From the NCBI GenBank assembly GCA_910575585.1, contig CAJTGF010000059.1:1-33858 (forward strand): 33,858 nucleotides of DNA. The letters are read 5' to 3'. A program made the translations under genes and the position numbers. The notes under the pieces were generated by a model that searched no databases, was not told the origin of the DNA, and was given only the letters and a program-made list of their open reading frames with translations. Shown piece by piece: positions 2,486-32,323 of this stretch (position 1 is its first letter; each line of letters begins with the position of its first letter). The stretch comes from Clostridiaceae bacterium. GTDB lineage: Bacteria > Bacillota > Clostridia > Lachnospirales > Lachnospiraceae.

Positions 2486-2492
2486 AGTATGG
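2486..2492 (-). promoter_or_regulatory. CCATACT promoter motif, EEKP surface protein gene
   Basis: The minus strand reads CGTAGCCATACTCTTAATG. It lies about 320 bases before the start codon and just after the terminator of the SpaA-type protein gene. No TTGACA-like box lies 16-18 bases upstream. Confidence 0.55.
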
Positions 2493-2534
2493 CTACGGGA
2501 TCCTTATGAAAAACTGTTTTTTTCTGTACAGCAT

Positions 2535-2566
2535 ACAAAAAAACAGCCCGGGAGACTGTCCCGGGC
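2535..2566 (-). terminator. Rho-independent terminator of the SpaA-type surface protein gene
   Basis: GCCCGGG pairs perfectly with CCCGGGC around a seven-base loop, followed on the minus strand by TG and a T run. It lies 16 bases beyond the stop at 2582. Confidence 0.9.
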
Positions 2567-2581
2567 CATCCTATCGTTTGG

Positions 2582-5500
2582 TCACGCTTTATTTCTTGTC
2601 AGTTGGTATTTTTTCTTATCTGCCAGGAGCCCTGCCAGGGTGAGCGCCGCTGCCCAAAAAACCAGAGCGGATGCCGGCTGGTCATCCGTTTTTGGAAGCT
2701 GGCTTGGTGTCTGGGACGGAGCCGGTGTCGGTTCTGGCGATGGGGTCGCAGGCTGCGGTGTCGGTGCCGTGGACTGGGGTTCCACTCCAGGCCCATGGGA
2801 TGTGTTGCCTCCGCCGCTATGGCTTCCGCCGCCTCCGCCACTGTGTCCGCCGCCGCCGGAGGGTTTCCCTGGGAGCGCCTTGTCGTACATCACAACCGTA
2901 TTGCCTTCAACTTTCCCGTCTGTAACGGTAAAGGTGATAGATTCTGCAACCTCATACCCCTGCGGGGCTGTTATCTCGGTCAATGTGTAGGTGCCATCCG
3001 CAAGGCCGGTGATCTTATGCGGGGTATCCGTTGAAGTCCATTCTGCCACGGTATTGCCATCCACATCGGTGATCTTTAACTTTGCGCCCAGTAGCTCATT
3101 AGAGTTTGCCGCATCCCGTTTGGAAACGTAGAAAGATCCCTCTGGCTTATCCGGCCTTTCCAGCTTATCGGGCTTTTCTGGTGTTTCTGGTTTGTCAGGC
3201 TTGTCCGGCTTTTCCGGTTCTGAAGGGGTATTCGGCTTCTCCGGCTCGGAAGGGGTGTTTTTCTTCTCCTCCGGTGCGTCATACATCACAACCGCATTAC
3301 CATCAACCTTGCCGTCAGTAATGGTAAAGGTAATGTCCTCGGCTACTTCATATCCATCTGGCGCTGTCGTTTCAGTCAGGGTATAAGTCCCATCCGCAAG
3401 GCCCTCGATCACATGCGGGGTATCTGTGGATACCCATTCATCAACAACTTTGCCATCTTTATCCGTGATCTTTAAGGAAGCGCCCGGGAGTTCGTCACCA
3501 GTCGCCACATCACGCTTGGAGACATGGAAGGAAGACTCCTCCTTCTCCTCTGGTGCGTCGTACATGATAACAATGCCTCTCTCCACCTTGCCGTCAGTAA
3601 TGGTAAAGGCGATGTCCTCGGCTACTTCATATCCGTCCGGCGCTGTCACTTCAGTCAGTGTATAAGTCCCATCTGCAAGGCCCTCGATCACATGCGGGGT
3701 ATTTGTGGATACCCATTCATCCATGATGTCCCCCTTTTCATTCGTTACTTTCAGGGAAGCCCCGGGGAGTTCTTCGGAAGTCGCAAGGTCTTTTTTGGAG
3801 ACTGTAACCTTTCTTACCTCCGGCGCATCATACATGATGACGATTCCGCCCTCCACTGCGCCGTCCTTGATCTCAAAGGTGATGCTTTCGGCTGTCTGGA
3901 ACCCGTCTGGTGCTGTTACCTCAGTCAGGGTATAAGCCCCGTCCTCTGGCATGCTGACCGTATGCGGCTCGTCGCCGGATATCCATTCGTCTACCACGGT
4001 GCCATCCGCAGACGTGAGCTTTAAGAATGCCCCCGCAAGTTCTTCCGTACCCCCAACTGCCCGTTTCGAGATGACAAGGTCTTCCTTGACCGGTTTGATC
4101 TCGAACGCATACTGGATCGCCGTACTCTCAGTCTTCGTCCCGGATACCAGGAGGTTCTGTTCCCCTGCTCCACCCGGTGCGTAATACATCAGGCTCCCCT
4201 TTTCGTAGGTAAAGGAAAGCGGCTGGCCTTCCGGCTTTGCCTGGGAAGTGAGCCGGATCTCCGTCCCGCTCACGAAATCCATCCCGCTGTTCCCGTAGAT
4301 ACCGAACCCTTCACCGGAGAGCGTGATGCTGATCTTATAGCTGTCATTCCTATTGCCGTCACCATCAACAGCAGATACCTTGAACGGGTCGCTCAAAAAT
4401 GTACCGTCACCCTGCTCCCTGAATATCAGGGTGCCGCCTTCGATCTCGAACACCGGAGAAAACGTATAGTCCCCAGGATGTGCCGACGCATCACGAAGTG
4501 CTTCCGTGTATGCCCGAACGTTCGCTTCCGTGAAATAGATGGTGGACCCAATGCCGTCGATGATGTCAGACGGCCTCCCGTCTACGAGTTCCCATATCAT
4601 GGAGCTGACTGCGTTCAGGGCCGCGTTCCCGTTACGGGACATTTCCATATCCCGAATGGCTTCCGCATAGGGCACACCGAAGATCTCTTCAAACAGCCCG
4701 ATGCCGTCATATGGCACACCTACAAACATCACGGCGCTGACCTTGTCATAATTTGCCCCGTCGATGATGCTGCTGAAATCAGCTCCGTCTGTCACCCTGT
4801 CCGGGATATGCTTGTCGCTATTGTAGCAGAAGGCGGTCTGGTCATTGACGATGAATACGCCGTTGTTCTGGTTGTAGAAATGGAACACCTTATCCCTCTT
4901 CAAGCTGTCCGGGATGCTGCTGCTCAGGCTCCAGTACTGCGACATGGAATCAAAAGCGTCCGTGTCAATCTCCTGGTACCTGCTCCAGTCCACACCGTCC
5001 ATGACTCCGCCCGCAAGCTTGATGAGCGCTCCGTCACTGGTATACAGGCTATCCCCGTCCGTCTGCAGGTAATCCCCGGAACCCGAACTGGTCACGGAAA
5101 AACTGCCTGCATGGAGGCCTGGAAGGGAAAGCCTTGTGCTGCCGCTCCCAGTGGTGGTCCTTGCGTTATCCGCAATGACCAGTTCGCTGGCCGTCGTCCC
5201 AGACAAGGCGTGTTTTGCCAGGGTATCCGCTTTCATCAGGTCAAGCCTCCCGAAGGATGCGTTATCCATGGAATAGATGACCTTCGTCCCCTCATGGACC
5301 GTGTAAGCATCCCCATTTGACGCAGCTGACGGATAGTCCAGCAGGAAACTGTGCTGGTACGTGTAAAGCGCGGGATCGTCTTCCGATACCGTGAATGCCC
5401 TGGAATTCGAGACGATCTCCTCCAGATCCTTGGCCTCAAAGAATGCGTCAGCGTTCATGCCGGCGATCTTCGCCCCTAGTTCCACCCGCCTTGCCCCGGA

Positions 5501-5761
5501 CCCGGACAGGAAATTGCTGCCAAGGTGGATCACGTCTTTCCCATCAACGGATTCCGGGATCACCAGGGTATCCCCGGAAAGGGCTGAAGCGTCCGCTTCC
5601 ACGACGCTGTACCCCTCACGGCCGGAACTTGCGTAATCCGCATAGCTGACCCCGTTCTCCACCCGGGACACTGTGGTCGTCGCAATGGACTGGATCGGGG
5701 ATGTTACCGCAAGGATCCCGCACAAAGAACCGGCAAACAGTCTTGCTCGTTTCTTTTTCAT
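2582..5761 (-). CDS. Large sortase-anchored adhesin with four SpaA-type domains
   Basis: The protein has 1059 residues. The ATG at 5761 follows AAGGAG at about nine bases. A signal peptide (1-28) leads to a region resembling BspA-type leucine-rich repeats (about 40-200, with phrases such as LVIPESVDGKDVIHLGSNF), then about 350 residues of unassigned ectodomain. Four SpaA/Cna-B beta-sandwiches begin near residues 560, 651, 744 and 873. Each has the VSKRD strand Lys, the YTLTE Glu and a terminal MYDAP Asp, the residues expected to form an internal isopeptide bond. A Pro-rich linker separates repeats three and four, and a Gly/Ser/Pro-rich stalk precedes the sorting signal LPKTD (about 1022), a membrane segment and basic tail. 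LPKTD deviates from LPxTG, so a non-standard sortase may be needed. The likely role is a cell-surface adhesin; no ligand can be predicted. Confidence 0.85.
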   Translation of the reverse strand: MKKKRARLFAGSLCGILAVTSPIQSIATTTVSRVENGVSYADYASSGREGYSVVEADASALSGDTLVIPESVDGKDVIHLGSNFLSGSGARRVELGAKIAGMNADAFFEAKDLEEIVSNSRAFTVSEDDPALYTYQHSFLLDYPSAASNGDAYTVHEGTKVIYSMDNASFGRLDLMKADTLAKHALSGTTASELVIADNARTTTGSGSTRLSLPGLHAGSFSVTSSGSGDYLQTDGDSLYTSDGALIKLAGGVMDGVDWSRYQEIDTDAFDSMSQYWSLSSSIPDSLKRDKVFHFYNQNNGVFIVNDQTAFCYNSDKHIPDRVTDGADFSSIIDGANYDKVSAVMFVGVPYDGIGLFEEIFGVPYAEAIRDMEMSRNGNAALNAVSSMIWELVDGRPSDIIDGIGSTIYFTEANVRAYTEALRDASAHPGDYTFSPVFEIEGGTLIFREQGDGTFLSDPFKVSAVDGDGNRNDSYKISITLSGEGFGIYGNSGMDFVSGTEIRLTSQAKPEGQPLSFTYEKGSLMYYAPGGAGEQNLLVSGTKTESTAIQYAFEIKPVKEDLVISKRAVGGTEELAGAFLKLTSADGTVVDEWISGDEPHTVSMPEDGAYTLTEVTAPDGFQTAESITFEIKDGAVEGGIVIMYDAPEVRKVTVSKKDLATSEELPGASLKVTNEKGDIMDEWVSTNTPHVIEGLADGTYTLTEVTAPDGYEVAEDIAFTITDGKVERGIVIMYDAPEEKEESSFHVSKRDVATGDELPGASLKITDKDGKVVDEWVSTDTPHVIEGLADGTYTLTETTAPDGYEVAEDITFTITDGKVDGNAVVMYDAPEEKKNTPSEPEKPNTPSEPEKPDKPDKPETPEKPDKLERPDKPEGSFYVSKRDAANSNELLGAKLKITDVDGNTVAEWTSTDTPHKITGLADGTYTLTEITAPQGYEVAESITFTVTDGKVEGNTVVMYDKALPGKPSGGGGHSGGGGGSHSGGGNTSHGPGVEPQSTAPTPQPATPSPEPTPAPSQTPSQLPKTDDQPASALVFWAAALTLAGLLADKKKYQLTRNKA

Positions 5762-5823: not shown

Positions 5824-5830
5824 AGTATGG
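5824..5830 (-). promoter_or_regulatory. CCATACT promoter motif, SpaA-type adhesin gene
   Basis: The minus strand reads ATGCTCCATACTTTACTTG, about 63 bases before the start codon at 5761. Confidence 0.6.
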
Positions 5831-7008: not shown

Positions 7009-7881
7009 TCACTGTGTCCTTAACTGCTCAAAAAGCAGGGATGCGTCAAAGTCATCAAAATCTTCGGGATCATCCATGACTCCCATACTGTCCGGCATCC
7101 ATCTATTCCCTCTGCCTGCTGTATCCTGTCCCGCATCCATGGGATACTCATGGAAGGTGCTGCCGCCATGGATTCCGTTGTTCCAGCTGTTTCCGCTATC
7201 CGTACCATCCCCGGAAAACCCTGTGCAGGCCGCGGCTGGCTCCTCAGGCTGCTGTTTCCCCGCTGCCATGGCCGTCCCTGCTGCGGTACGGTAAGGGCTG
7301 GCCTCCGCCGACCCCTCCATGATGTCCGCCGGCCTCGTGCCAAGGATCTCCTCTATCGGCGTGCTGCGGATCTTTTCCCTGCCTTCTTCCGTTTTTCTCC
7401 GCTGTTCCTCTGTTTTCTCCCTGGTCGTGCTCACCTGGTCGATCCACTGCACGCTCCCCTGCCCGCTGTTTTTTTTCTTCCATTCCTTCAGGCGGACAGT
7501 CCTGCCTTTTCTTTTTTCCTTATCATTGTCTGGTACCCAGGTCCCGGCCTGCGACATCTTGTTAAGGGAATCAATGACGGAGCTTCCCAGGTACGTCCTG
7601 GCAATGTTCTTGATGCAATGGCATTTATACTGGTCAGGGAAAGCGCATACCCATAGGACCAGGTCCGGGTGTTTTTTCTCGTCCAGTGTGACCTTGACCC
7701 GGTATACCTTCCCCTTATGCGGCTTGAGTTCCAGCTTTCCCGGTATATCGAACCGGATATCTTCCTTTTTGTAATGTGCTTCCAGGGCCTTTGCGAACAC
7801 ATCGGACAGCCGGATCCCGTTCAGATACAGCTGAATCAGGTCATTATCATGATGGAGGTACAGTCTTACCTGGAATGTCAT
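7009..7881 (-). CDS. ParR-like partner of the actin-like partition ATPase (predicted)
   Basis: The protein has 290 residues. The ATG at 7881 shares its A with the TGA stop of the upstream actin-like gene (TGATG), a mark of translational coupling; the longer in-frame reading from 7977 lies inside that gene. In ParM-type systems the gene directly after parM encodes ParR, which binds the centromere and caps the filament. Residues 1-50 (VRLYLHHDNDLIQLYLN, then ALEAHYKKED) fit a strand-helix-helix DNA-binding fold of ribbon-helix-helix type. A second part (50-150) contains a CHCIKNIARTYLG segment. Residues 150-200 are highly charged, and the rest is low-complexity Gly/Ala/Thr with an acidic end (DDPEDFDDFDASLLFEQL), possibly the filament-contacting tail. 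It is longer than typical ParR (about 100-120 residues). The role is inferred mainly from gene order. Confidence 0.6.
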   Translation of the reverse strand: MTFQVRLYLHHDNDLIQLYLNGIRLSDVFAKALEAHYKKEDIRFDIPGKLELKPHKGKVYRVKVTLDEKKHPDLVLWVCAFPDQYKCHCIKNIARTYLGSSVIDSLNKMSQAGTWVPDNDKEKRKGRTVRLKEWKKKNSGQGSVQWIDQVSTTREKTEEQRRKTEEGREKIRSTPIEEILGTRPADIMEGSAEASPYRTAAGTAMAAGKQQPEEPAAACTGFSGDGTDSGNSWNNGIHGGSTFHEYPMDAGQDTAGRGNRWMPDSMGVMDDPEDFDDFDASLLFEQLRTQ

Positions 7882-9074
7882 CACTTCCCACCAGCTTCCA
7901 TGCGGCGCAGACGGCTGACCATACACAAGTAGTAGCCGCGCACGTTGGTATAGATGAGGTCTGTATGCTCCCTGCAATTCTCATTGCCCATCAGGATCGT
8001 CAGGCTGTCCATGGCCCCGAAATAGTCCCGGATCATCTCTTCCCATGGGGCGAAGGTTCCGCCGGTGAGTACCAGGTACTTGTATTCATCAAGCCCGTTG
8101 AACGTGCTCATGATCTTTTCGACCGCCTCTTCGCAGACTTCCTTCACGACTTCTTCCAGGATGTCTGCGATCGGGTATGTGACCTTATGCGGGCGGCGGT
8201 TTTCCGGCGTGGATACGTACCGTACCGCCTCCCCGGCTTCCAGTGCGTTCTGGATGGACGTCTGGTCCAGTGACAGGTGGTATTTTTCATTCGCCCGGGT
8301 GCAGACGCGGTTTAAAATTTCCCGCATTCCGAAATTCGTGAAGGTCTCCCGGCCGCGGATGACCCTGTTGTAGAGTTCATATAAGTCCAGCGTCTCAAAG
8401 CCCGCATCAGCGATCAGCAGGTTTGAGGAAAAGTAATCCCTTGCCGCCCGCACGCTCTTGCAGTTGTCATCCATGCTAAGGCTCATGAGCGTCCCTTCCG
8501 GCTGCGCCATGACGTCGATGTCTTCCGGCTTTAACGTGAAGTCATTAGGCATGGAGCGGTCGCCCATCTGCAGCATGAACCGGTGCCTTCCGGATAACGT
8601 GTTGATGAGCTCCTGCTTATCTGGGCCTTTTAAGTAGGCCGGTGGAAGGCCGGTCTGCAGGTAGCATGGCAGTTTTGTGTACGCCCCGCAGCCGGTGTTC
8701 ATCATGCCGAAACCCAGTCCGGTACGGGCGATCACCTGGAACAGGGTGCTGGAGTACCGGTGCCTGCCAAATAATTCTGACTGGGAATCGCTGGTGTCGT
8801 TGATACTGGTGGATTTCTGGGCGCATGCGCCCACCCTCCACACTTCATCGGTCTCAAGATCATGGTAAAGGATCTCGTCCTTGGACGGCAGGCCGAGGAT
8901 GTCCTTTTTCTTCCCGATCTTTTTCGCATAGGATGGGAAACAGAACAGGCTGTTCTGGGAATACCCCTTTACCCCGGAATAACCGATGTCAAGAGCCACC
9001 GGCCAGCGGTTCTGGCATGCGGCATGTTTTTCTGCTTTGATCTCCGTCCTTGTACGGTAATCTGTTGTCTTCAA
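7881..9074 (-). CDS. parM-like: ParM/StbA-family actin-like ATPase for plasmid segregation
   Basis: The protein has 397 residues starting at TTG (9074), with AGGAGG eight bases before it. It shows the actin-fold nucleotide-binding motifs in order: phosphate-1 DIGYSGVK (29-36), phosphate-2 IADAGFETLD (221-230) and the adenosine loop LVLTGGT (334-340). ParM proteins polymerise with ATP into filaments that push sister plasmids apart through ParR bound at a centromere. Size and motif spacing match the family. It is the first gene of an operon with the coupled ParR-like gene. No array of direct repeats resembling a classical parC centromere is visible in the 176 bases upstream; that stretch holds a CCATACT promoter and a TATCCGCA box instead. 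An alternative is a cell-shape MreB relative, which the length and context make unlikely. Confidence 0.88.
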   Translation of the reverse strand: MKTTDYRTRTEIKAEKHAACQNRWPVALDIGYSGVKGYSQNSLFCFPSYAKKIGKKKDILGLPSKDEILYHDLETDEVWRVGACAQKSTSINDTSDSQSELFGRHRYSSTLFQVIARTGLGFGMMNTGCGAYTKLPCYLQTGLPPAYLKGPDKQELINTLSGRHRFMLQMGDRSMPNDFTLKPEDIDVMAQPEGTLMSLSMDDNCKSVRAARDYFSSNLLIADAGFETLDLYELYNRVIRGRETFTNFGMREILNRVCTRANEKYHLSLDQTSIQNALEAGEAVRYVSTPENRRPHKVTYPIADILEEVVKEVCEEAVEKIMSTFNGLDEYKYLVLTGGTFAPWEEMIRDYFGAMDSLTILMGNENCREHTDLIYTNVRGYYLCMVSRLRRMEAGGK

Positions 9075-9144: not shown

Positions 9145-9151
9145 AGTATGG
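9145..9151 (-). promoter_or_regulatory. CCATACT promoter motif, parM-like operon
   Basis: The minus strand reads ATCAGCCATACTTGCATC, about 70 bases before the TTG start. A CTATCCGCAAAAAACC box (9169-9184) lies about 18 bases upstream of CATACT, the same arrangement as at the HU gene. Confidence 0.6.
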
Positions 9152-9250: not shown

Positions 9251-10078
9251 TTATTCGTTATCCGCAGGCTCTGTGCCGGTTTCCGCTTCTTCCGCCCGGG
9301 CCTTTGCGGCTCCCGCCAGCTCTTCCAGTTCCGGGATCTCCATAGGTTCTGCTTCTGCAGCAGGCTCCTCTGCCTCTGCGGCTACGTTGTAACGGTCAAC
9401 AAATTCTTTCTGGGTCACCAGTTCCTGGATCACAAACGTCTGTGTGAAATATACTTTTCCGCGGTACTCGCTGCGGGCGCTCTCCATCGCCCCGATCACG
9501 TACACGGTATCGCCAAGATGGATCCGCTGGTCCAGACCCTGCGGTACGCGGAAATACATCCCGGTCACGGCATAGGTGCGGTCGTCTTTCCTGGTCTCAA
9601 GGCGGATTTCATAGATGTCTTCCCGGCGCTTGGAGATGCCGGTGATCTTTGCTTCCAGGCGGATCTCGTTCGCCGCGTCAGCATATCTCCCGTTGAAACC
9701 GCCAAGCCCGAGCATCTGCTCCATGCGTGTGGCATCATGCTCGATCTCGTCAATGTAAATCGCCGTGCGTTCTGCGAAGCCTCCGCCGGTCTGGTAGGAA
9801 TATGCGCCAAGGTATCCCTTGATCAGTACGTGATCCCCTTCGCGGAAAGATTGGATGATCCCTTTCGTCTTCGTGGAGGCGTTGAACAGCGCTTCCGGGA
9901 AATATGTCTCCACGCTCTGCTCAAACCTGGACTGTCCGTTTTCGCGGACCCTTCTTGTGACGATCTCATTGTAAGGCACGGTCAGGGAGCCGAAACGTTC
10001 ATTCCCGTACAAGTGGGAGATCCTTCCTCTTAGATACACTTCATTCATTGGCTCATGGGTATTGTTCTGCTCTTTCAT
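9251..10078 (-). CDS. Tandem OB-fold, SSB-like protein
   Basis: The protein has 275 residues. The ATG at 10078 follows AAAGGA with five bases between; a longer in-frame reading to 10177 runs through non-coding DNA. Residues 12-115 resemble an SSB OB-fold (NEVYLRGRISHLYGNERFGS at the start, then GDHVLIKGYLGAYS). Residues 140-225 form a second OB-like unit (KITGISKRREDIYEIRLETR, then GDTVYVIGAM). The tail is acidic and Ala/Glu-rich but lacks the DDxPF tip of true SSB. It is probably a single-stranded-DNA-binding or nucleoprotein-assembly factor of the element's replication or transfer machinery. It is monocistronic, between its own promoter motif and terminator. A separate typical SSB is encoded at 30228-30677, so this one may have a specialised role. 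Confidence 0.65.
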   Translation of the reverse strand: MKEQNNTHEPMNEVYLRGRISHLYGNERFGSLTVPYNEIVTRRVRENGQSRFEQSVETYFPEALFNASTKTKGIIQSFREGDHVLIKGYLGAYSYQTGGGFAERTAIYIDEIEHDATRMEQMLGLGGFNGRYADAANEIRLEAKITGISKRREDIYEIRLETRKDDRTYAVTGMYFRVPQGLDQRIHLGDTVYVIGAMESARSEYRGKVYFTQTFVIQELVTQKEFVDRYNVAAEAEEPAAEAEPMEIPELEELAGAAKARAEEAETGTEPADNE

Positions 10079-10307
10079 GGTATTCTTTCCTTTCTTTCCT
10101 GGGCTTTTTGCCCTTGTATTATTAAAAAATGATAGCTTTGCGCCTGGTCCCGTGCAGCCTGCGTCTACGAGCGGCACCGGTCATCGCCGGGCGTTTTCTG
10201 TTCGTACATTGGTTTCCCGGCTCTGTATGGTGTCCTGCGTTTTTGCCCGCAGGGCGCACATATCCTCAAAGCTGGTCTGCCAGGGTCAACATCCGTTAAC
10301 TGCTTTA

Positions 10308-10314
10308 AGTATGG
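10308..10314 (-). promoter_or_regulatory. CCATACT promoter motif, tandem OB-fold gene
   Basis: The minus strand reads GCATCTCCCATACTTAAAG. It lies about 230 bases before the start codon, further than usual. A weaker CCATACA occurs nearer the gene, at about 10224-10230. Confidence 0.5.
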
Positions 10315-15198: not shown

Positions 15199-15205
15199 AG
15201 TATGG
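15199..15205 (-). promoter_or_regulatory. CCATACT promoter motif, SMC-like ATPase operon
   Basis: The minus strand reads TGTTTCCATACTTCAGGTG. It shares GTTTCCATACT with the promoters of the sigma-factor and SSB genes. It lies 40 bases before the start at 15159. Confidence 0.65.
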
Positions 15206-17321: not shown

Positions 17322-17328
17322 AGTATGG
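17322..17328 (-). promoter_or_regulatory. CCATACT promoter motif, Ala/Lys-rich gene and exonuclease
   Basis: The minus strand reads CCTCGCCATACTTCCGGTG, followed by AACA. It lies about 55 bases before the start codon and 25 bases beyond the dnaE terminator. Confidence 0.65.
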
Positions 17329-21547: not shown

Positions 21548-21554
21548 AGTATGG
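21548..21554 (-). promoter_or_regulatory. CCATACT promoter motif, dnaE
   Basis: The minus strand reads CATCCTCCATACTTTAACC, followed by AGAACA. It lies 40 bases before the TTG start. Confidence 0.65.
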
Positions 21555-21883: not shown

Positions 21884-21890
21884 AGTATGG
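21884..21890 (-). promoter_or_regulatory. CCATACT promoter motif, small membrane protein gene
   Basis: The minus strand reads ATCCCTCCATACTTCCC, 34 bases before the start at 21850. Confidence 0.6.
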
Positions 21891-21957
21891 AGGGATCTTG
21901 GCGGCATATGGCTCTGGCGGGTAGCTATTTTCCCGGTGTGCTTCCGTCGGCAGTGTG

Positions 21958-21987
21958 CAAAAAAAGCCACCCCGCAAGGGATGGCTT
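21958..21987 (-). terminator. Rho-independent terminator of the MoxR/VWA operon
   Basis: AAGCCA-c-CCC pairs with GGG-a-TGGCTT around GCAA, followed by a T run on the minus strand, about 30 bases beyond the stop at 22018. Confidence 0.9.
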
Positions 21988-22795: not shown

Positions 22796-24796
22796 TTACC
22801 AGTCCTTAACCACGGTCTTGATCAGGTCTGCTGCCCGGTCAGCCAGGTCGTTTGGCCGGAGGATGCTGATAAAATGATCCGCTCCATACATCTGGGTGAA
22901 TGTTCCCGTATTGCCTGCGTCCACGGCGATCCCGAACACCTCGGCCCCAGAGGCCCTGGCACCCTGGATGGCGGCCGTGTTTTCGCGTATCCCGTCCTCT
23001 CCGGTGAAATAATGGGAAGGGAGCCCGTCAGATATCACGCACATGAGCTTATGTTTCTCCGTCCGCTTCCGTAAAACCTCTGTTGCGTACCGGATGCTGT
23101 AGGAATCTAAGTTGTTCCCGTCCGGCCTCGCCGAAAGTATGCTCATGCGCTCTTCCGTGGTATTCTTCCACCGTACGAAATGCGTCTGGTATGCGTCGAA
23201 CCCATGGATATGCTGGAATCCCATGCAGTAGACGGGGATCTTCAGGACCGCAAAGGCTTCGCAAAGGACTGTTGCCGCAAGCTTCGCCTGCAGTTCCTTG
23301 GCACCCCGCATGGAGCCTGATAAGTCAAGTAACAGCATCAGGCACATGTCAGCCTTGTCCCCCGGCAGGATCCTCCGTTCGAACATCCTGGTGGTAGTCC
23401 TCCCGGATGCGGCCCGCTTCATGCTGATCCTGCCACGCTGGGTATACATCTTCCCTCCCCGGTCATCCATGAAGATCTTTTTTAACTGGGTGACCAAAGG
23501 GGCGGTGATCCATGCCGCTGCATTCAGTATGTCTGCGCCGCCGTCCGGTATGTCGTCCGCGGAGGGGATTATGTTTTTTTCTTTGATGCCGGAAAACTGC
23601 CTATGCTGGCTCCAGACTACCGCTGAATAAGACTCGGGTTTTTCCGTGCCGTCATCTGGCTTATCCCCGGCTCCCCCTGTCAGGAGGTAACGCTCCATGG
23701 CCTCGGCAAACTTCTCTGCGATATGCGGGTCGTATGCGAACACCGGCCCGTCATCCGTATCGTCGGTATCATTGGTGTCATCGGCATCAGCACCGCCTGG
23801 ACTGTCAGGATTTTGCTCCAAAAAAACCTTATCCGCAGAAAAATCCCTGTTTTGCCCGCCATTTTTGCGGATAACCCTTTTTCCTCCATTTTCTTCTTCC
23901 CCGCCCGGCATAAGTCCGGCATCCCTCATGAGCGCTTCGTCCTCTTTTAAGGACTGCGCCTCCATTTCCTTTTTGCGCCGCCCGTTCCTGGCGTCCTCCG
24001 CCTTCTGCGGAGTTTTCCCCTTCCCGGAACCGACGGTCCTGTTTTTGGCATAACGCCCTGCCACTTCCTCAAAACGCTTCTTGATCTTGCCGGATGACTG
24101 TCCGGCCCATAGGGCCTTGGCTTCCTGGTATACCTGCAGGGAAAGCCTGACCCGTTCCGCCCCATCGGGTTCATTGATAGCCCGGTAAATGATGGGGGCG
24201 GTCCTGTTGAAATACTCGCGGGCGGTGTCGGAGGAGAAGCCTCCTTTGACAATCCCCCGGTCGCCGAACTGGATCAGCGCTTCCAGGTATTCCTCCAGGG
24301 CCTGCCCATGGTTCTGCGGCCCGGAGACCGGCTGCGCTTCTTCATAGATCTTTTCGATTGTGAAATGCAGGGCGTCCAGGGCAAAGCCCCCGACCACCTG
24401 GCCGGCGAAATTCTCGATGGCCGGGTCTTCGATCAGGTTGAATATCCTTGCGAACATTTCCTGCTCAAACGGGTTGGCGATCGTTTCTGCTGTTGCGTTA
24501 AAAGTATCAAAGTCCGTAAACACTTGGTGGAGAGCTTCATGTACGTTCACGCCGAAACGGAACACCGCAGCCTCCTCCCTGGTGAACCGCCTGTAATAAT
24601 CATGCTCCCTTGCGACATGGATCACGGAGCCTTTGGACGTATAGCCAAGCTCCCCTATCTCCCAGAGGGAGACATCCATGACCAGGATGCGCCTCCCGGC
24701 AAGGAAAGTGTCCAAGGTCTCCATGGACCGCTTTTCGGCGTTCCATTCTTCTTCCGTAAGGGGGCGGTTCCTTTTCGGTTTCTTTGTGTCATTCAT
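22796..24796 (-). CDS. VWA (CobT-like) protein with an HExxH metallopeptidase-like motif
   Basis: The protein has 666 residues. The ATG is preceded by GGAAGGAAC at a long spacing. The N-terminal region carries HEALH (86-90), followed by FNLIEDPAIE (119-128), an HExxH plus downstream acidic motif seen in a class of VWA proteins with putative zinc-dependent domains. A disordered acidic linker (about 265-370) follows. The C-terminal VWA domain has an intact metal-binding MIDAS: DLSGS (491-495) and Asp590 in ISDG. It pairs with the MoxR-type ATPase encoded just upstream. Such pairs act as ATP-driven chaperones that remodel or insert metals into a partner, as CobS/CobT and NorQ/NorD do. The target here is unknown. 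The coding sequence contains two inverted TTATCCGCA 9-mers. Confidence 0.85.
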   Translation of the reverse strand: MNDTKKPKRNRPLTEEEWNAEKRSMETLDTFLAGRRILVMDVSLWEIGELGYTSKGSVIHVAREHDYYRRFTREEAAVFRFGVNVHEALHQVFTDFDTFNATAETIANPFEQEMFARIFNLIEDPAIENFAGQVVGGFALDALHFTIEKIYEEAQPVSGPQNHGQALEEYLEALIQFGDRGIVKGGFSSDTAREYFNRTAPIIYRAINEPDGAERVRLSLQVYQEAKALWAGQSSGKIKKRFEEVAGRYAKNRTVGSGKGKTPQKAEDARNGRRKKEMEAQSLKEDEALMRDAGLMPGGEEENGGKRVIRKNGGQNRDFSADKVFLEQNPDSPGGADADDTNDTDDTDDGPVFAYDPHIAEKFAEAMERYLLTGGAGDKPDDGTEKPESYSAVVWSQHRQFSGIKEKNIIPSADDIPDGGADILNAAAWITAPLVTQLKKIFMDDRGGKMYTQRGRISMKRAASGRTTTRMFERRILPGDKADMCLMLLLDLSGSMRGAKELQAKLAATVLCEAFAVLKIPVYCMGFQHIHGFDAYQTHFVRWKNTTEERMSILSARPDGNNLDSYSIRYATEVLRKRTEKHKLMCVISDGLPSHYFTGEDGIRENTAAIQGARASGAEVFGIAVDAGNTGTFTQMYGADHFISILRPNDLADRAADLIKTVVKDW
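23829..23875. repeat. Inverted pair of TTATCCGCA 9-mers inside the VWA gene
   Basis: TTATCCGCAGAAAAA (23829-23843) faces TTTTTGCGGATAAC (23862-23875), with 18 bases between. They lie in the codons of the disordered linker, where sequence constraint is low. Each arm matches the intergenic version of the motif, including the A/T run. Confidence 0.5.
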
Positions 24797-24818: not shown

Positions 24819-26486
24819 TTAGTGTTTTTTCGGTTTGAAATCCGGGAGGTTCGCGATCACGTTCTTGCTGATATTGTCAGCGGCCTGCGGATCCACGATC
24901 CCGACAGCGCCTACGACCGTATCGATCAGGGCCGTTTTCGCATCTTCCCCTTCGCTCATGTTCTCCAGTGCCCCGAGGCATGCCCGGGTGCTTAAGTTCA
25001 TGGCGTATTCCGCAGTCGCCCGGTTTGATGTCAGGAGGTTCATGACCTTCACATAGGCGTTATGGACATAGGCGGCCGCATCCCGGTCATACCCGTAATT
25101 GGTCAGGAACCGGATGAAGTCTTCCGGGGACGGGTCAGCAATCCGGTATTTCTGCTTGAAGCGGCTGGCAAACGACTGGTTCAGCCACATGGTGCCTTCC
25201 GTCCCGACATTCATGGTTGATATGATGACCGTGAACGGGTTCCGGTTCACCTTCAGGTACCCGTCCTTCATGATGAAGAAGGGGTATTCGATGGCATTGT
25301 TGAGCGCCCCGGTGACCACGTTCTGGTCTGCGCAGTTAATCTCCTCTAAGAGCAGGATTCCGCCCTTTTCGTAGCCTTCCAGGAAGTCTGTCTCTGTAAA
25401 GACGAGCTTCCCGGCAACGATCTTGTTCTTGCCTTCCACTTCGTCTGATTCTGTGTACTTATCAAACTTGACCTCGTATAACGGCATCCCGGTCGCGGCA
25501 GACAGCGCATGCGCCAGCACGGTCTTCCCGGTCCCGGGGTTCCCGTACAAGAGCACGTTCACGACGTCCCGGCGTATCAGTTCCGGTTCCGTCAGCCCGC
25601 ATTCGTACTGCATGGTCATGTTCTGGCCGATGCGCAGGTCAAGCTTGTTCATCAGGCGGAAAAACTCCGGGATCGGGACAAAGGTATCCAGAAATTCCGG
25701 CGGGATGACCCGCTTCTTCTGCTCCTCGCCCCATTCATGCCTGATGATATGCTCCCCGTTCCGGTAACCGGAAATATCTGGCCCTGCTGCCTCCTTCTTC
25801 GTGTCCTTTGGCTTTTTGAGTGCTTGTTTAGATTCCTCCTCCACCCTTATCGGGCTTTCCAGGAACGGAAATTCCTCATAATACCCGCAGGATACCGCCT
25901 GCTTCATCTCTTCCACAACGAGGTCGTCTGAGATCTCTGCTTCCTTCTGGCAGCCCATCAGGAATTCATAAAGGACCGTGTCGCAGAACTGGTACACCGT
26001 ACCAATCTTTCCCTGACCCACGAAATCCGTGTACAGCCTCATGCAGTTCGCGTTGGCCTGCGTGGCAAGGACTGCAGCCGGTATGAGCATGGCAGCCGGA
26101 TCCATTGGCATCTTCGTATAGGAAAGGCGGATCACCTGTCCTTGGCCCATGTGGGCTCTGCATGTGACAATGTTTCCTTTCGGGTGCTTGAACACCATGA
26201 AGACGTCATCCGATGCCCTGACGGCTTTCAGTGTCTTGTCATGTACGCACTGCAGCATGAACGCCGCCATGCTGAGCCTTGTCGTTTTTGGTATAGGGGT
26301 TGTGTGCGCCGAAGCGTCCGCATTGATATGTCCGGCGCTCATCGGGTACTTTCTGGTGATATGCCCGATCTTGGCTTCCTGGCCGTAGATAGCAGCAAGG
26401 AATGGGACGGTGGATATCTTGTCATCCGTGACCATGCCTTCCTGGATATTAGCTAATGCGGACAGGTTTTGTTTTACTGTAGCCAT
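24819..26486 (-). CDS. MoxR/CobS-type AAA+ ATPase
   Basis: The protein has 555 residues. The ATG at 26486 follows AAAGGAG. The AAA+ module lies in the C-terminal half: Walker A GNPGTGKT (315-322), Walker B ILLLEEINCAD (377-387), sensor-1 Asn426 in ISTMN and a likely arginine finger, Arg442, in SFASRFKQKY. The insertion at about 345-365 fits the MoxR/CobS/midasin group. Residues 1-300 form a large N-terminal region of unknown fold, longer than usual MoxR (about 330 residues in total). The ATPase is the first gene of the operon and is followed after 22 bases by the VWA gene. Together they should form a hexameric ring with a VWA partner that remodels proteins. The Glu-Glu in Walker B replaces the usual Asp-Glu. 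Confidence 0.9.
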   Translation of the reverse strand: MATVKQNLSALANIQEGMVTDDKISTVPFLAAIYGQEAKIGHITRKYPMSAGHINADASAHTTPIPKTTRLSMAAFMLQCVHDKTLKAVRASDDVFMVFKHPKGNIVTCRAHMGQGQVIRLSYTKMPMDPAAMLIPAAVLATQANANCMRLYTDFVGQGKIGTVYQFCDTVLYEFLMGCQKEAEISDDLVVEEMKQAVSCGYYEEFPFLESPIRVEEESKQALKKPKDTKKEAAGPDISGYRNGEHIIRHEWGEEQKKRVIPPEFLDTFVPIPEFFRLMNKLDLRIGQNMTMQYECGLTEPELIRRDVVNVLLYGNPGTGKTVLAHALSAATGMPLYEVKFDKYTESDEVEGKNKIVAGKLVFTETDFLEGYEKGGILLLEEINCADQNVVTGALNNAIEYPFFIMKDGYLKVNRNPFTVIISTMNVGTEGTMWLNQSFASRFKQKYRIADPSPEDFIRFLTNYGYDRDAAAYVHNAYVKVMNLLTSNRATAEYAMNLSTRACLGALENMSEGEDAKTALIDTVVGAVGIVDPQAADNISKNVIANLPDFKPKKH

Positions 26487-26544: not shown

Positions 26545-26551
26545 AGTATGG
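26545..26551 (-). promoter_or_regulatory. CCATACT promoter motif, MoxR/VWA operon
   Basis: The minus strand reads TGTACCCATACTTTAAGCG, followed by AACA. It lies 59 bases before the start at 26486. Confidence 0.65.
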
Positions 26552-26671: not shown

Positions 26672-27817
26672 TTAATTTTTTTTGCTGGTGACCCCCGGGC
26701 CGAAGTTGGCGTAATAGTCATCATCCTTTTCGGCCTCATCCTCCTGCTCCATGTATTCGCTGCTCATCTTCCCTGTCAGGATGCCGTCAGCCCCGGCTTT
26801 CCTTCCATCCGGTACGGCCTGGTTCACGGCCATCTTCCCGTCTGCTGTCATATAATAGCTGTCATTGCCCCAGCGGATCACCTTGTCCGTCACCATGTAA
26901 CCGTCCGAGCCGAAGAAATACCAGTCCCCGTTCAGCTCCGTCCAGTCGTACTGCAGGTAGGAGCCGTCTTCGTTCTGGTACCACCAGCCGGTATCGTCCT
27001 GTCTCCAGCCGACGTTCTTATGGATCACTTCCACGGTGCCGGGGCCGCCGCCTTCCGCGCCATCCAGTTTCCTGGTCTCGGTCTCCACGCCGTATGCGTC
27101 AGAATAGGCGTCTGCCATCTCCTTGGTGACGCTAAACGCCCCGGCCTCCGCCTGCTCGCCCCGGTACCCGCTCCGGGAAAGCGGGGAGACCTTTAAGGAA
27201 TAAGACCCTTCCTTGGTCATGAGCGGCTTAAAGTCATAGGTCGTCCCGCCTGTGTAGTAGATCTTGCTGCTCCCATTGCGCGAAAGGACGAGCCTATACC
27301 TGACTGCGTTATAAGCTGGATCCCAGGACGCCGTCCCGTCACTATGCCAGGCCGCCGCCTCCACGGGGCTGCAGACATCTTCCAGCTGGGTGAGCTGGAA
27401 TGTCAGGCGGAGCGTCGTGCCGTTATCGAGGCGTGAGGCTTTTACATATTTTGCGCCGGCCCCATTCAGTTTTACCTGGTCTGCTTTTGTCAGGTAGAAA
27501 GCATACCCGTCTTCTGCGGTAAACTCGATGATGTAGTTCTCTTCCGCTGCACTCTTTGTCTTCTTTGCGCTGCTGCCATCATCGTCATCATCATCCGCGA
27601 ACTCTGACTCTAAGTCAGCCGTCCCGCAGGAATAATGGGCGGATGACGGGACTTCCGCCTCGATCTCAGGATATCCGTATTCGTCATATCCCTCGATCTT
27701 GAAATCCACGGATACCCGGCTGATCTTTTCCGCTGCCAGGGCACTGCCCGGCGTCATGGCCGATGCGCCTGCTGCCGCAAGCATGGCGGCCATCAATGCT
27801 GTTACTTTACGTTTCAT
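26672..27817 (-). CDS. Secreted protein with cell-wall (choline-type) binding repeats
   Basis: The protein has 381 residues if started at the ATG at 27817. The GGAGG site lies 19 bases before that ATG but only seven before an in-frame CTG at 27829, and an ATG at 27856 is also in frame, so the true start is uncertain. All versions share a signal peptide (MKRKVTALMAAMLAAAG, cleavage near ALA). The ectodomain has a charged Asp run, beta-rich regions (about 85-230), and then two or three aromatic repeats (GWWYQNEDGSYLQYDW, then GDWYFFGSDGYMVTDK) typical of CW_binding_1 modules, which attach to wall teichoic or lipoteichoic acids. The C-terminus is acidic. It has no catalytic domain that I recognise. 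It may be a surface factor that acts in mating contact or adhesion. It has its own promoter motif and terminator. Confidence 0.7.
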   Translation of the reverse strand: MKRKVTALMAAMLAAAGASAMTPGSALAAEKISRVSVDFKIEGYDEYGYPEIEAEVPSSAHYSCGTADLESEFADDDDDDGSSAKKTKSAAEENYIIEFTAEDGYAFYLTKADQVKLNGAGAKYVKASRLDNGTTLRLTFQLTQLEDVCSPVEAAAWHSDGTASWDPAYNAVRYRLVLSRNGSSKIYYTGGTTYDFKPLMTKEGSYSLKVSPLSRSGYRGEQAEAGAFSVTKEMADAYSDAYGVETETRKLDGAEGGGPGTVEVIHKNVGWRQDDTGWWYQNEDGSYLQYDWTELNGDWYFFGSDGYMVTDKVIRWGNDSYYMTADGKMAVNQAVPDGRKAGADGILTGKMSSEYMEQEDEAEKDDDYYANFGPGVTSKKN

Positions 27818-27872
27818 GTTTTTGTCCAGGGGAGTTCCTCCCCCTCCTCCTTTCATGGATTATCCTGGTCTA

Positions 27873-27879
27873 AGTATGG
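27873..27879 (-). promoter_or_regulatory. CCATACT promoter motif, wall-binding protein gene
   Basis: The minus strand reads ACATCCCCCATACTTAGACC. If CATACT is a -10 box, transcription would start about 10 bases before the ATG at 27856, which argues for the later start codons. Confidence 0.6.
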
Positions 27880-28825: not shown

Positions 28826-28905
28826 TGTGCCACGCCATACAGCCATGCCATGCCTGTTTCTGCCTCTGCCATGATTTTTCGGTATTTTTTCACATGCCCA
28901 TGTTT

Positions 28906-28912
28906 CCATACT
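28906..28912 (+). promoter_or_regulatory. CCATACT promoter motif, sigma-factor gene
   Basis: The plus strand reads TGTTTCCATACTCTCAATG. It is the only plus-strand copy found ahead of a gene and lies 47 bases before the start codon at 28959, suggesting that the sigma factor drives its own gene. Confidence 0.65.
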
Positions 28913-28958: not shown

Positions 28959-29867
28959 ATGGCAAGATGTAGTACACAAAAAGTAACAGAAACAGCGAAA
29001 TCGCATGGCGTGGCAAGGCCAGGGTCTTCCTGCATGCCAAGGAGTTCAAAGGAGGAGGCCAACAGGCTCTCTGTCGACGCCATCATGGACCAGTACCCGG
29101 TCCTGTCCGCTGCGGAGGAAAAGGAATTGGTCAGCCAGAAAGGTACCAGCCAGTGGCCCCAGGCCAAGGAGCAGCTGATGCTCCATAACCTGCGGCTGGT
29201 CGCTTCCATAGCAAGGAAGTATAACTGGATGGATGAGTACAGCTTTGATGACATCGTGTCACATGGTGTTATCGGGCTGATGTTAGCCATAGACCGTTTC
29301 GACCCGCGGGAGGGCACGAAGCTCGCTACGTATGCGACCTACTGGATACTCCAGGAGATCCGGGACAACCTCCTGTATAAGAGAGGGCCGGTCAAGAGGC
29401 CCGCTTATCTGGAGAAAATGGCCGCAAAGCTGAAGCGGTGTTGTTCCGAACTGGCCCAGGATGGGGACTCCAGCCCGTCAGACCAGCTGCTATCCCAGCG
29501 GACCGGCATCCCGGAACGCAAAGTCCGCGAGATCATGGACATCTACGGCAAAAACGCCATATCCATGAATGCGGACATCGGCGGTGGGGGGGATACGCAG
29601 GTCGGCGATATGATCCCTTCCAATGTCAATGTGGAAGACGAAGCAGTCAGGAAAATCACCCTGATGGATATCGCGGAAGCCGTCAAAAAGCTGAAGCCCA
29701 TAGAGCAGCAGGTGATCATGATGCGGTTCGGCTTCGTGGGCGGATCCCCGATGACGCTGGAACAGTGCGCAGAAGAGACTGGGTATTCGATTGAAGGCTG
29801 CCGCCAGGTACAGGAAACGGCCATCCGCAAACTACAGGCGGATTACAGGGAGACAAAGAAACATTAA
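28959..29867 (+). CDS. Sigma-70 family RNA polymerase sigma factor
   Basis: The protein has 302 residues. The ATG at 28959 follows GAGGAGG; an in-frame ATG at 28917 overlaps the promoter. Region 1.2-like (37-60) is followed by region 2 (68-150), with core-binding LMLHNLRLVASIARKY and the -10-reading helix ATYATYWILQEIRDNL. Region 3 (about 150-220) and region 4 (235-297) follow; the latter's helix-turn-helix TLEQCAEETGYSIEGCRQVQ includes an altered recognition helix. Gln132 matches Gln437 of E. coli sigma-70, but Arg135 stands where sigma-70 has Thr440, a residue that contacts the first base of the -10 box. Sporulation sigma-G, from memory, has Arg there and reads CATACTA. All regions are present, so it should direct RNA polymerase to a distinct promoter class, proposed here to be CCATACT. 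Confidence 0.9.
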   Translation: MARCSTQKVTETAKSHGVARPGSSCMPRSSKEEANRLSVDAIMDQYPVLSAAEEKELVSQKGTSQWPQAKEQLMLHNLRLVASIARKYNWMDEYSFDDIVSHGVIGLMLAIDRFDPREGTKLATYATYWILQEIRDNLLYKRGPVKRPAYLEKMAAKLKRCCSELAQDGDSSPSDQLLSQRTGIPERKVREIMDIYGKNAISMNADIGGGGDTQVGDMIPSNVNVEDEAVRKITLMDIAEAVKKLKPIEQQVIMMRFGFVGGSPMTLEQCAEETGYSIEGCRQVQETAIRKLQADYRETKKH

Positions 29868-30227: not shown

Positions 30228-30677
30228 TTAGTTGAACGGGAGTCCATCCAGTTCATCCAGCCCGTCCGGGATATTCATGAACCCGTCACCGATTGGAGAT
30301 GGTGCCGGTGCAGCAGCTGTTCCGCCGCCATTGCCTCCGTTACCTGCATTCTTGCTGTCAGCAAACTCCTGTTCGTCCACGATGGCATCAGTTGTGTAAA
30401 CTTTCTGACCATCGCGGTTAGTGTAATTGCCTGTCTGTATCCGTCCGGATATAAGAACTCTCATGCCCTGGCGGAAATACTTCTCCGCAAACTCGCCCCT
30501 TTTATCAAAGGCGATACAGTTGATGAAATCAGCGGTCGGCTGTCCGTCGCTGTTGTTTTTACTTCCCCTGCGGTCCACCGCCAGCGTATATCTGGCAATA
30601 GCCATGGAACGCTCTCCCTGGGAGTATCTTACCTCTGGGTCTCTTGTAAGTCTTCCCATTAATATGACTTTGTTCAT
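30228..30677 (-). CDS. ssb: Single-stranded DNA-binding protein
   Basis: The protein has 149 residues. The ATG at 30677 follows TAGGAG. It is a standard bacterial SSB: it starts MNKVILMGRLTRDPEVRY and continues with FINCIAFDKRGEFAEKYFRQ and GMRVLISGRIQTGNYTNRDG, the OB fold that coats single-stranded DNA as a tetramer. A Gly/Asn/Ala/Pro-rich linker leads to the acidic tip ELDGLPFN, matching the DDxPF tail that recruits partner enzymes, here with one extra Asn after the Phe. It probably serves replication by the element's DnaE or protects single strands during transfer. It is monocistronic. Confidence 0.95.
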   Translation of the reverse strand: MNKVILMGRLTRDPEVRYSQGERSMAIARYTLAVDRRGSKNNSDGQPTADFINCIAFDKRGEFAEKYFRQGMRVLISGRIQTGNYTNRDGQKVYTTDAIVDEQEFADSKNAGNGGNGGGTAAAPAPSPIGDGFMNIPDGLDELDGLPFN

Positions 30678-30750: not shown

Positions 30751-30757
30751 AGTATGG
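30751..30757 (-). promoter_or_regulatory. CCATACT promoter motif, ssb
   Basis: The minus strand reads CCGTTTCCATACTCTTATTG, 74 bases before the ssb start. It belongs to the GTTTCCATACT subgroup shared with the sigma-factor and ATPase-operon promoters. Confidence 0.65.
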
Positions 30758-30830: not shown

Positions 30831-32150
30831 TCAGTGTTTCTCCGTCCCATCTTGGGAAAGCACCGTATAATAGGGGCAGTTTGTACAATCCCGGCCATAG
30901 GCGCATTTACGGGAATCGTCGTAAAGGCATTTCTTCTTTCTCTGCGATACCAGGAAAGTGACCAGGGCTGCCAGGAGCACCAGCTGTGTCGCTGCCAGGA
31001 CCGGATGCTCCATGACCGCTTCGATGACGCTGTGGTAGAATGCGGATATCACGCCCATGATCTTCCCGAACGGCGTCTGCTCCGCAGTGGATACATAGAC
31101 CGCCTCGGCCTCATAGGTATACACTGCCCGGTGGGAAGCATCCAGTTCCTCCGTGTACAGGCACTCCCATGCAGCACCGTCCTGGTGCGGCAGGGTGACT
31201 TCTGCGGAATATACTGCGTCAATGTCCCTCACATATTTTTCCCCAGTACCCACTGCGTTCCGGTAGGTCTCCCCGTTGCGCTCGTATGGCTCGCCATCCC
31301 AGTCTATCGAATCGACCCGGTAATATTCCCCGTCCAGGCCCAGCATATCAAGGAGCTCATCCGCATGGTTGGCAAGCGGCTCATCCGCACGGATCTCCTT
31401 GCCGTTTAAGTCCAGGGATTCAGCACCGTACCCGGATATCGTGATCGGGAACTCAAACGGCATCCAGTACCAGGCTCCTTCCGACTGGTCTGTCAAAGGG
31501 AGCATATCGTTTATGGACTCCCCGGTATCCTCGTCAGTGTAAGTGTACTCCACAGAGTCAGGGACTGGAACACCTGTTTCAACCCCGACGTACCGTTTTG
31601 TAGTCACCGCCTCCTTTACCCGGTCCTCGATCTCGCTGTCTACCAGTTGCTTTTTTGTGAGGCTCCAGGAAACTCCATCCTTTTTTATGGATTTATCTGG
31701 CAGGTACTCGTTTTCCGTGCCTTTGAGAAATGTTTCCGTGGTCAGTTCCATCGTCTGCCTCTCTGGTGTGCGGGAATCCGTCATCCGTAGCCCGTCAATG
31801 CTGCTCAAAACAAATTCCGTGTCCCCGACCAGGATGGATTCCGTCAGGTCATTGAACCCGGTGTCGGCATCATCATAAGATTCAAAAGTGATCGTGGTCT
31901 TAAATTTACGGTCGTCCCCGCTGACTCCGTCCAGATCAGCCGTAAAACCAAGCCCTGTACTGTCTGTGCAATCTGTCCCCGCTGTTTCTGCGGCCACTCC
32001 TTCCCCTTCCTGTACCGCCAGTGTGCCCAGCAGATCAGGTGCCTGGTCCGCAAATACCGGGCATGGCCGGATCATGGATGAGAGCAGCACAGCAGCCCCC
32101 AATGCGACATACCCGGTGCGGGATATATTTCGTTTACGCATCATAGTCAT
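30831..32150 (-). CDS. Exported protein anchored by a C-terminal membrane helix with a Cys-rich tail
   Basis: The protein has 439 residues. The ATG at 32150 follows AGGAGG. A signal peptide (about 1-37, ending near VFA) leads to a 340-residue acidic ectodomain with many aromatic residues and repeated VDSIDWDGEPY-like turns. A hydrophobic segment (ATQLVLLAALVTFLV) follows, then a basic stop and a short cytoplasmic tail with four cysteines (CLYDDSRKCAYGRDCTNCPYY) that could bind a metal ion. No family was recognised. Exported single-pass proteins of this layout are common on conjugative elements of clostridia and may take part in the transfer apparatus or surface. Whether the tail senses metal or redox state is unknown. 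Confidence 0.7.
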   Translation of the reverse strand: MTMMRKRNISRTGYVALGAAVLLSSMIRPCPVFADQAPDLLGTLAVQEGEGVAAETAGTDCTDSTGLGFTADLDGVSGDDRKFKTTITFESYDDADTGFNDLTESILVGDTEFVLSSIDGLRMTDSRTPERQTMELTTETFLKGTENEYLPDKSIKKDGVSWSLTKKQLVDSEIEDRVKEAVTTKRYVGVETGVPVPDSVEYTYTDEDTGESINDMLPLTDQSEGAWYWMPFEFPITISGYGAESLDLNGKEIRADEPLANHADELLDMLGLDGEYYRVDSIDWDGEPYERNGETYRNAVGTGEKYVRDIDAVYSAEVTLPHQDGAAWECLYTEELDASHRAVYTYEAEAVYVSTAEQTPFGKIMGVISAFYHSVIEAVMEHPVLAATQLVLLAALVTFLVSQRKKKCLYDDSRKCAYGRDCTNCPYYTVLSQDGTEKH

Positions 32151-32262
32151 AATTTTTCCTCCTGCTATTAGATACAAAGCGTATCATTGCTCTGCTCACT
32201 TTACTGCGTCGCCTCCTCCGCAGATCAGTATGTCAAAGGCTGTTACCTCTCCGGCATACAAT

Positions 32263-32282
32263 CCACCGGGCTTGCCCGGTGG
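32263..32282. repeat. Perfect hairpin CCACCGGGC-TT-GCCCGGTGG
   Basis: A nine-pair perfect stem with a two-base loop lies in the leader of the exported-protein gene. No T run follows on either strand, so it is not a terminator. It resembles the stem-loops of REP or IS200/IS605-type ends and may be a remnant of such an element, or a leader regulatory structure. Confidence 0.5.
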
Positions 32283-32316
32283 TCAGTGAAAGTCCGCCTC
32301 GCTTTTTATTTAAAAA

Positions 32317-32323
32317 AGTATGG
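32317..32323 (-). promoter_or_regulatory. CCATACT promoter motif, exported membrane-anchored protein gene
   Basis: The minus strand reads GGATGCGCCATACTTTTTT, about 165 bases before the start at 32150. A nearer ACATACTG (about 32228-32235) may be a second site. Confidence 0.55.

Follow-up and report, generated by a model that had tools for sequence, protein, structure and literature searches.

What does the heptamer CCATACT do in the 33,858-nucleotide (nt) stretch of Clostridiaceae DNA examined here? This stretch, the window, is the entire contig C59 of a genome (G000; 6.1 Mb in 253 contigs) and appears to belong to a large conjugative element. An earlier sequence-only reading had placed the heptamer ahead of thirteen transcription units and proposed one regulator or sigma factor for the whole element. 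That proposal is the best reading of our results too, supported by conservation of the heptamer ahead of orthologous genes, by its -10 geometry, by its spread over a related element and by an excess that goes with one sigma factor gene. We consider it probable that CCATACT is the -10 of a promoter class private to the element and read by the window-encoded sigma factor sig1, which would amplify its own synthesis and govern an element-wide regulon.

Exact CCATACT occurs 14 times on the two strands of the window, at precisely the positions listed in the sequence-only reading, its single intragenic copy at 7083-7089 included. Dinucleotide shuffling gives an expectation of 2.58 (standard deviation 1.60, largest 7; none of 100 shuffles reaches 14), lower than the chance figure of about four given earlier. 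In the site alignment, 13 copies are directed at genes, 12 of them on the minus strand and one on the plus strand, and the remaining copy is antisense within a gene. As had been proposed, the sites point towards the next gene: at 12 of the 13, a sized gene follows in the correct direction 23-146 nt downstream, and the site at 21884 precedes a small open reading frame (ORF).

The sequence around the heptamer suggests how it is used. Among 104 copies with a Shine-Dalgarno (SD)-like string 25-95 nt downstream, a set that includes 10 of the 13 window sites and excludes 58 copies lacking such a string, 88 have a pyrimidine-purine step at the predicted start, 12/13 nt past the first C; the step is found in 20 of the 58 excluded copies and in 7 of 19 chromosomal ones, and at other steps of the 104 sites pyrimidine-purine stands at 0-43%. 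A-rich sequence follows it. CCATACT thus behaves as a sigma70-type -10, with C at -13, CATACT at -12 to -7 and a predicted +1 lying 13 nt after the first C; C replaces the usual T at -12 and the usual A at -8. In the window the start step is present at 11 of the 13 sites, so that eleven of the proposed promoters look good and those at 21884 and 32317, which lack it, are doubtful. A GAACA said to be shared downstream by several sites is exact in 3 of 13, the real common feature being the pyrimidine-purine step and the A-rich sequence after it, and an AT about six bases upstream is weak (offsets -5 or -4 total 36 in the 104 sites).

No other -10 was found nearby, one-mismatch TATAAT being under expectation in all five zones around the 104 sites. 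The absence of a TTGACA-like -35 holds as well, with 6 one-mismatch copies against 13.6 expected at offsets -45 to -20. Since the start step is in place, TATAAT is low in every zone and TTGACA is depleted at -35, we take CCATACT itself to be the -10. A search for a -35 with variable spacing gave weak words at most (tt.Ggc, 39.6; aT..Gc over the A/T tract, 63.6; control zone, 27.2), and TATCCGC, considered as an upstream element, was dropped: the 104 sites contain 14 copies, of which 6 lie at -32 to -30. An extended -10 (TG at -15/-14) is not seen in a set of 94 sites chosen with an SD-like limit of 25-70 nt and slightly different contig ranges (T 0.38 at offset -2, G 0.22 at offset -1). A/T content does rise in the 104 sites, reaching 0.72-0.76 over -45 to -40 where the surrounding positions stand near 0.5; a passage of PMC2613000 places proximal UP elements in the matching region.

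When 340 upstream regions were searched freely for motifs, much as the sequence-only reading had suggested, a CCATACT-type motif, tTCCATACTTTc..tGaA, ranked first (log-ratio 384.0), above a ribosome-binding-site motif (370.8). In the CCATACT-seeded run C stands at 98% at -12 and 83% at -8, and the sixth base of CATACT is T in 98%.

Related but diverged elements in two other genomes allow the sites to be compared gene by gene. Contig C3 of G009 (59 kb, in an assembly ~80% complete) is syntenic with the window, with 17 ORF matches. G459, Clostridiaceae bacterium isolate C48_71_CS_BP, was reached through a match to the actin-like protein of the window; its 227-kb contig C4 holds a related element from ~50 to 205 kb (~150 kb), the sole near-complete copy, and contigs C30 and C41 are pieces of a second copy. 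The comparison took in the orthologues, in G009 and on G459 C4, of 12 window genes that have CCATACT in the 260 nt before them and of 10 that do not. G009 keeps the heptamer before 10 of 11 orthologues and G459 C4 before 10 of 12, mostly at a similar distance, the actin-like gene on C4 having ACATACTT instead; among genes without it in the window, none of the ten orthologues has it in either. Fisher values of 3.4e-5 (G009) and 1.0e-4 (G459 C4) are guides only, because the elements are related, several control genes lie within operons and one is a cut coupling-protein gene. Among 21 groups with a G009 orthologue CCATACT is the top shared 7-mer, in 10 groups, the next non-overlapping one reaching 3.

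The motif is also spread over the G459 C4 element, where CCATACT occurs 70 times against 30 for the reversed heptamer; the chromosomal flanks have 7 of each. It is not equally frequent in coding sequence, a point raised in the sequence-only reading: 47 of the 70 copies lie outside ORFs (28 upstream of ORFs, 19 elsewhere) and 23 inside, compared with 2 of 30 reversed heptamers outside (1 and 1) and 28 inside. ORFs were called crudely, as the longest, and some inside sites may fall in false ones. The 8-mer CCATACTT occurs 17 times upstream of ORFs in this element and 0 times in chromosomal upstream regions.

The candidate reader, sig1, exceeds the Pfam cut-offs (in brackets) for sigma70 regions 2, 3 and 4, with 50.2 (24), 43.6 (25.3) and 35.3 (24.1) bits, and passes the NCBIfam sigma70 superfamily cut-off. 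It is not an RpoD equivalog, RpoD-type models matching far below their cut-offs (RpoD_Cterm, 151.9 bits against 354), and it is 32-35% identical to two host RpoD-type sigma factors. Homologues are encoded on G009 C3 (46%), G459 C4 (56%) and G459 C30 (55%), and CCATACT stands ahead of the gene in all four; in the window, where this is the sole plus-strand promoter-like copy, the gene starts 53 nt past the first C.

The distribution of motif and sig1 over genomes was followed by counting the pattern CCATACTT..AGGAG against its reversed control, which misses other CCATACT copies. Among 99 relatives, only G000 and G009 contain matches of sig1 grade (1.1e-74 or better, the next best being 8.3e-39), and only these two show a clear excess of the pattern (35 against 4 and 15 against 1; next highest 11 against 8). 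G459, the third genome with sig1, was found through another gene and has 72 against 10. In 397 family genomes, in which G009 was not drawn, G000 stands out with its 35 against 4 and is the only one with sig1. Use of the motif by every large element that has a related sigma factor was considered and rejected: 67 loci with distant sigma relatives, found on viral contigs with a sig1 alignment, have 136 CCATACT and 143 reversed heptamers, and of the 33 with single upstream counts (L172-L204) 2 have one copy no more than 100 nt from an ORF and 31 have none. Because there is no excess in the 67 loci, the CCATACT code looks clade-specific. One of the 33, L174 (viral contig IMGVR_UViG_3300032038_000475), has 6 copies against 0 reversed near a 32% sigma relative.

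Alignment of the four sig1 proteins with host SigA shows changes at T440 (to R/R/R/C), H455 (to Y in all four), E458 (to K in all four) and R584 (to I/A/P/D), with the residues equivalent to 585 and 588 kept. The numbering is that of E. coli sigma70, as we placed it on the alignment. T440I and Q437H are reported in a passage of PMC2613000 to suppress a T-to-C change at -12, residues 455 and 458 to touch -14 and residue 584 to touch -31; the changes in sig1 would fit promoters whose -12 is altered, whose -35 is altered or missing and which have no TG element. The motif, its geometry, its conservation, its restriction to genomes with sig1 and the autoregulatory site can all be read from the sequences, and sig1 is a strong candidate for the regulator that would recognise the motif.

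In the mechanism that we propose, sig1 would direct host core RNA polymerase to CCATACT promoters which, having no visible -35, would rely on the -10 and on the A/T tract at -45 to -40, a tract that the alpha C-terminal domains probably hold. With a promoter of this type ahead of its own gene, sig1 would amplify itself, and this may act as an all-or-none switch for replication, partition, surface-protein and probably transfer genes. Only one family of large conjugative elements, found in gut Clostridia, would have this promoter class.

Several observations weigh against this account. The 104 sites were chosen by the motif, so that seven letters are fixed and only the flanks are evidential, and some of the sites are orthologous copies. 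An exact CCATACT seed reached a lower optimum (361.9, rank 24 of 120), three shifted seeds scoring best, and CCATACTT is only the fifth 8-mer upstream of ORFs of the G459 C4 element, behind A-rich and SD words. One-mismatch words are slightly high for TTGCCA far upstream of the motif (27 against 15.8) and for TTGACA downstream of it (16 against 11.2). The control genes of the orthologue comparison were easy, several being inside operons and the cut coupling-protein gene having coding sequence upstream. Two window genes without the motif have relatives with it: gene 22018-22764, at -201 on G459 C30, and the transglutaminase-like gene, whose 28% match on G459 C40 has it at -145. Among the 397 family genomes, G179 (18 against 3) and G313 (11 against 3) show a pattern excess with no sig1 match, and the G009 sig1 is unlike the other three at 437/440 despite an identical motif. 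Finally, contigs of G000 and G459 that bear a second sigma-like protein, sig2, or in which no sigma factor was found, also hold CCATACT, so that sig1 is perhaps not the sole reader, or not the reader.

These last contigs lead to the chief alternative, that sig2 reads CCATACT and sig1 serves other promoters. The sig2 proteins form a divergent family of ~400 residues in which sigma region 2 can still be recognised, encoded in G000 at C3:13987-15207, C10:30323-31501 and C62:21359-22419 (the C62 copy being split over two frames) and in G459 on C21, C37 and C68. The five complete ones have, in a hand alignment, His at the position of E. coli sigma70 Gln437, the substitution for which PMC2613000, in the passage cited above, reports suppression of T-to-C at -12; motif sites on the contigs that bear sig2 speak for it too. 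Yet sig2 has no match in G009 (E<=1e-20) nor among the ORFs of G459 C4, both of which use the motif, and same-strand CCATACT is near none of the six sig2 starts. Although these absences are not final, G009 being ~80% complete and G459 having sig2 on other contigs, we prefer sig1 as the reader because sig2 was not found in G009 or on G459 C4, and we regard sig2 in that role as rather unlikely. The sites themselves differ somewhat: CC at -5/-4 has a frequency of 0.27 in the 104 but 0.46 in 89 sites from contigs not in the sig1 set, on most of which no sigma factor was found and some of which bear sig2. Co-resident elements may share the motif or read one another's copies.

Two further explanations do without an element-borne sigma factor, and both were rejected on the chromosomal background and the absence of another -10. 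Mobile elements can have element-wide operators, and an activator or repressor might bind CCATACT at promoters of the ordinary kind read by host SigA, with the slight surplus of TTGACA-like words downstream in its favour; TATAAT-like words, however, are enriched in none of the five zones, the motif lies at -12 to -7 of the start step in 88 of the 104 sites, and it is non-palindromic with a fixed direction towards the gene, which leaves an operator very improbable. A host sigma factor of the sporulation type seems at first suggested by the motif, as the -10 of the SigE/SigK type begins CATA and the SigE -10, CATACANT, has CATAC in common with it. The sixth base, though, is T in nearly all sites, where SigE has A; the chromosomal flanks on G459 C4 are at background and most chromosomal copies lack the start step (7 of 19 have it); and RpoD-type matches occur in 96 of the 97 relatives lacking sig1, with the pattern in clear excess in none of the 97 (11 against 8 at most). 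We hold this explanation to be extremely improbable.

Two loci, in G000 and G459, encode a fusion of sigma region 4 with an RNA polymerase alpha C-terminal domain (Pfam Sigma70_r4 and RNA_pol_A_CTD; Table 1). Among the 397 family genomes it is present in G000 only, and it has no match in the plasmid collection. The fusion was rejected as a universal reader: PF03118 has no match on G459 C4, and the single match in G009, a 48-residue frame on another contig, is probably RpoA. A layered private initiation apparatus of sig1, sig2 and the fusion, in which the fusion recognises the A/T tract and replaces the missing -35 in trans at promoters that have a -10 alone, and in which co-resident elements share a code and could activate one another, is conceivable, if unlikely.

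No title describing a CCATACT promoter class or a sigma regulon spanning an integrative and conjugative element (ICE) appears among the literature matches listed, a weak negative. By analogy the closest parallel in working is SigN (ZpdN) of the Bacillus subtilis plasmid pBS32. The CCATACT class departs from it in its -10, in showing no -35, in the type of sigma factor and in belonging to a conjugative element. In the parts of PMC6751061 that describe it, 19 listed promoters (17 measured, 2 predicted) share a motif, the SigN gene has a motif promoter of its own, giving positive feedback, and its authors found no chromosomal SigN promoters. The likeness is one of working and lies in an element-borne sigma factor, a motif before its own gene and restriction of the motif to the element, judged here from the chromosomal flanks on G459 C4 and the pattern counts rather than from a whole annotated chromosome. 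According to the same parts of PMC6751061, SigN promoters have a -35-like TTTACGTTT and a GATATAA-like -10, SigN is weakly homologous to extracytoplasmic function (ECF) sigma factors and pBS32 carries a cryptic prophage, whereas here the -10 is CCATACT with no -35 seen, sig1 has regions 2, 3 and 4 and the element has a conjugation coupling protein.

A conjugative setting is shared with the ConjTn1549 family of streptococci, in which, in a passage of PMC4701971, 14 of 14 ICEs carry a sigma factor that, the authors suggest, may regulate ICE transfer. The coupling protein on G459 C4 is of the CD1115 family (VirD4-like; 452.5 bits against a cut-off of 250), the sigma factors being likened by description only; unlike the present analysis, that passage names no promoter motif or regulon. 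With host SigA/RpoD, sig1 shares regions 2, 3 and 4, a -10 at -12 to -7 and a predicted start 7 nt on, but C at -12 and -8, the lack of a -35 and the residues at 440, 455, 458 and 584 set it apart. The architecture resembles the UP/-10 promoters that stand with a question mark in the relevant part of PMC2613000, having an A/T tract at about -45 to -40, a -10, no -35 and no TG; it differs in being the rule of a whole regulon, with a contact to alpha that we infer.

If sig1 does read CCATACT, one self-amplifying sigma factor can switch a large gut conjugative element; the silence of such elements, followed by joint expression of replication, partition and surface genes, would then have an explanation. 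The finding would also provide a readable promoter code for locating their transcription units, a concrete regulon for the sigma factors already known from Tn1549-type elements, and a natural case in which to test changed -12 specificity and sigma function without a -35.

Table 1. CCATACT sites of the window, with sig1 and the fusion genes (window coordinates unless a contig is named).
Feature	Location	Strand	Gene or product	Predicted +1	Remarks
sig1	28959..29867	+	sigma70-family factor, 302 residues		candidate reader of CCATACT
CCATACT	28906..28912	+	sig1 (as -10)	28919	A/T tract 28874-28879 (6/6 A/T); start step present
CCATACT	2486..2492	-	LPXTG-anchor protein gene 1150-2463	2479	kept in G009, G459 C4
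CCATACT	5824..5830	-	SpaA-repeat surface protein gene 2582-5761	5817	kept in G009, G459 C4, both at -70
CCATACT	7083..7089	+	antisense inside gene 7009-7977		no start step; taken as chance
CCATACT	9145..9151	-	actin-like (ParM-type) gene 7881-9074	9138	kept in G009; ACATACTT in G459 C4, C41
CCATACT	10308..10314	-	gene 9251-10177	10301	kept in G009, G459 C4, C41
CCATACT	15199..15205	-	gene 13359-15107	15192	kept in G009, G459 C4
CCATACT	17322..17328	-	gene 16246-17268, then exonuclease gene 15358-16236	17315	kept in G009, G459 C4 (C4 gene start extrapolated from a match beginning at residue 234)
CCATACT	21548..21554	-	DNA polymerase III alpha gene 17423-21508	21541	kept in G009, G459 C4, C30
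CCATACT	21884..21890	-	small ORF (inside 21608-21970)		doubtful: no start step; tract 1/6 A/T; no orthologue found
CCATACT	26545..26551	-	MoxR-like AAA ATPase gene 24819-26486, then VWA-type gene 22796-24796	26538	kept in G009, G459 C4
CCATACT	27873..27879	-	choline-binding-repeat protein gene 26672-27856	27866	kept in G459 C4; no orthologue found in G009 C3
CCATACT	30751..30757	-	gene 30228-30677 (single-strand-binding-like, by eye)	30744	kept in G009, G459 C4, C30
CCATACT	32317..32323	-	gene 30831-32177, 146 nt downstream		doubtful: no start step; not kept in G009, G459 C4
Fusion protein	G000 C27:33506-34549 (L010 13506-14549)				CCATACT ~45-60 nt upstream
Fusion protein	G459 C32:24065-25045 (L140 4065-5045)				CCATACT ~45-60 nt upstream

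By Pfam the window encodes transglutaminase-like, SpaA-repeat surface, actin-like, DNA polymerase III alpha, exonuclease, MoxR-type, VWA-type and choline-binding-repeat proteins, a sigma70-family protein and the end piece of a conjugation coupling protein. Synteny with G009 indicates that the element of G000 probably runs from C27 through the window (reversed) to the left part of C3, contigs that are unjoined in the assembly. The gene at 13359-15107 has no relative in the plasmid collection. The actin-like protein has no relative among the viral contigs; 33-35% relatives occur on plasmids of Ruminococcus albus 7 (420 kb) and Butyrivibrio proteoclasticus B316 (361 kb), and a 37% relative in an 83-kb human-gut 'Bacteriophage sp.' record.

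On G459 C4 a large serine recombinase gene (49163-51335; L126 9163-11335) abuts codons 105-268 of the sporulation gene sigG, codons 1-104 of which were not found on that contig by tblastn; sigG may be an insertion site of the related element. What looks by eye like an HU-type DNA-binding protein, at 32466-32721 on the minus strand of the window, appears split over two frames, by a frameshift or an assembly error. The window copy of the coupling protein is its C-terminal part by Pfam, and its gene is probably interrupted by an intron: a group II intron 3' domain (Rfam RF00029, 50.9 bits) lies at 33744-33840 on the minus strand, at the contig end, adjoining that part of the gene.

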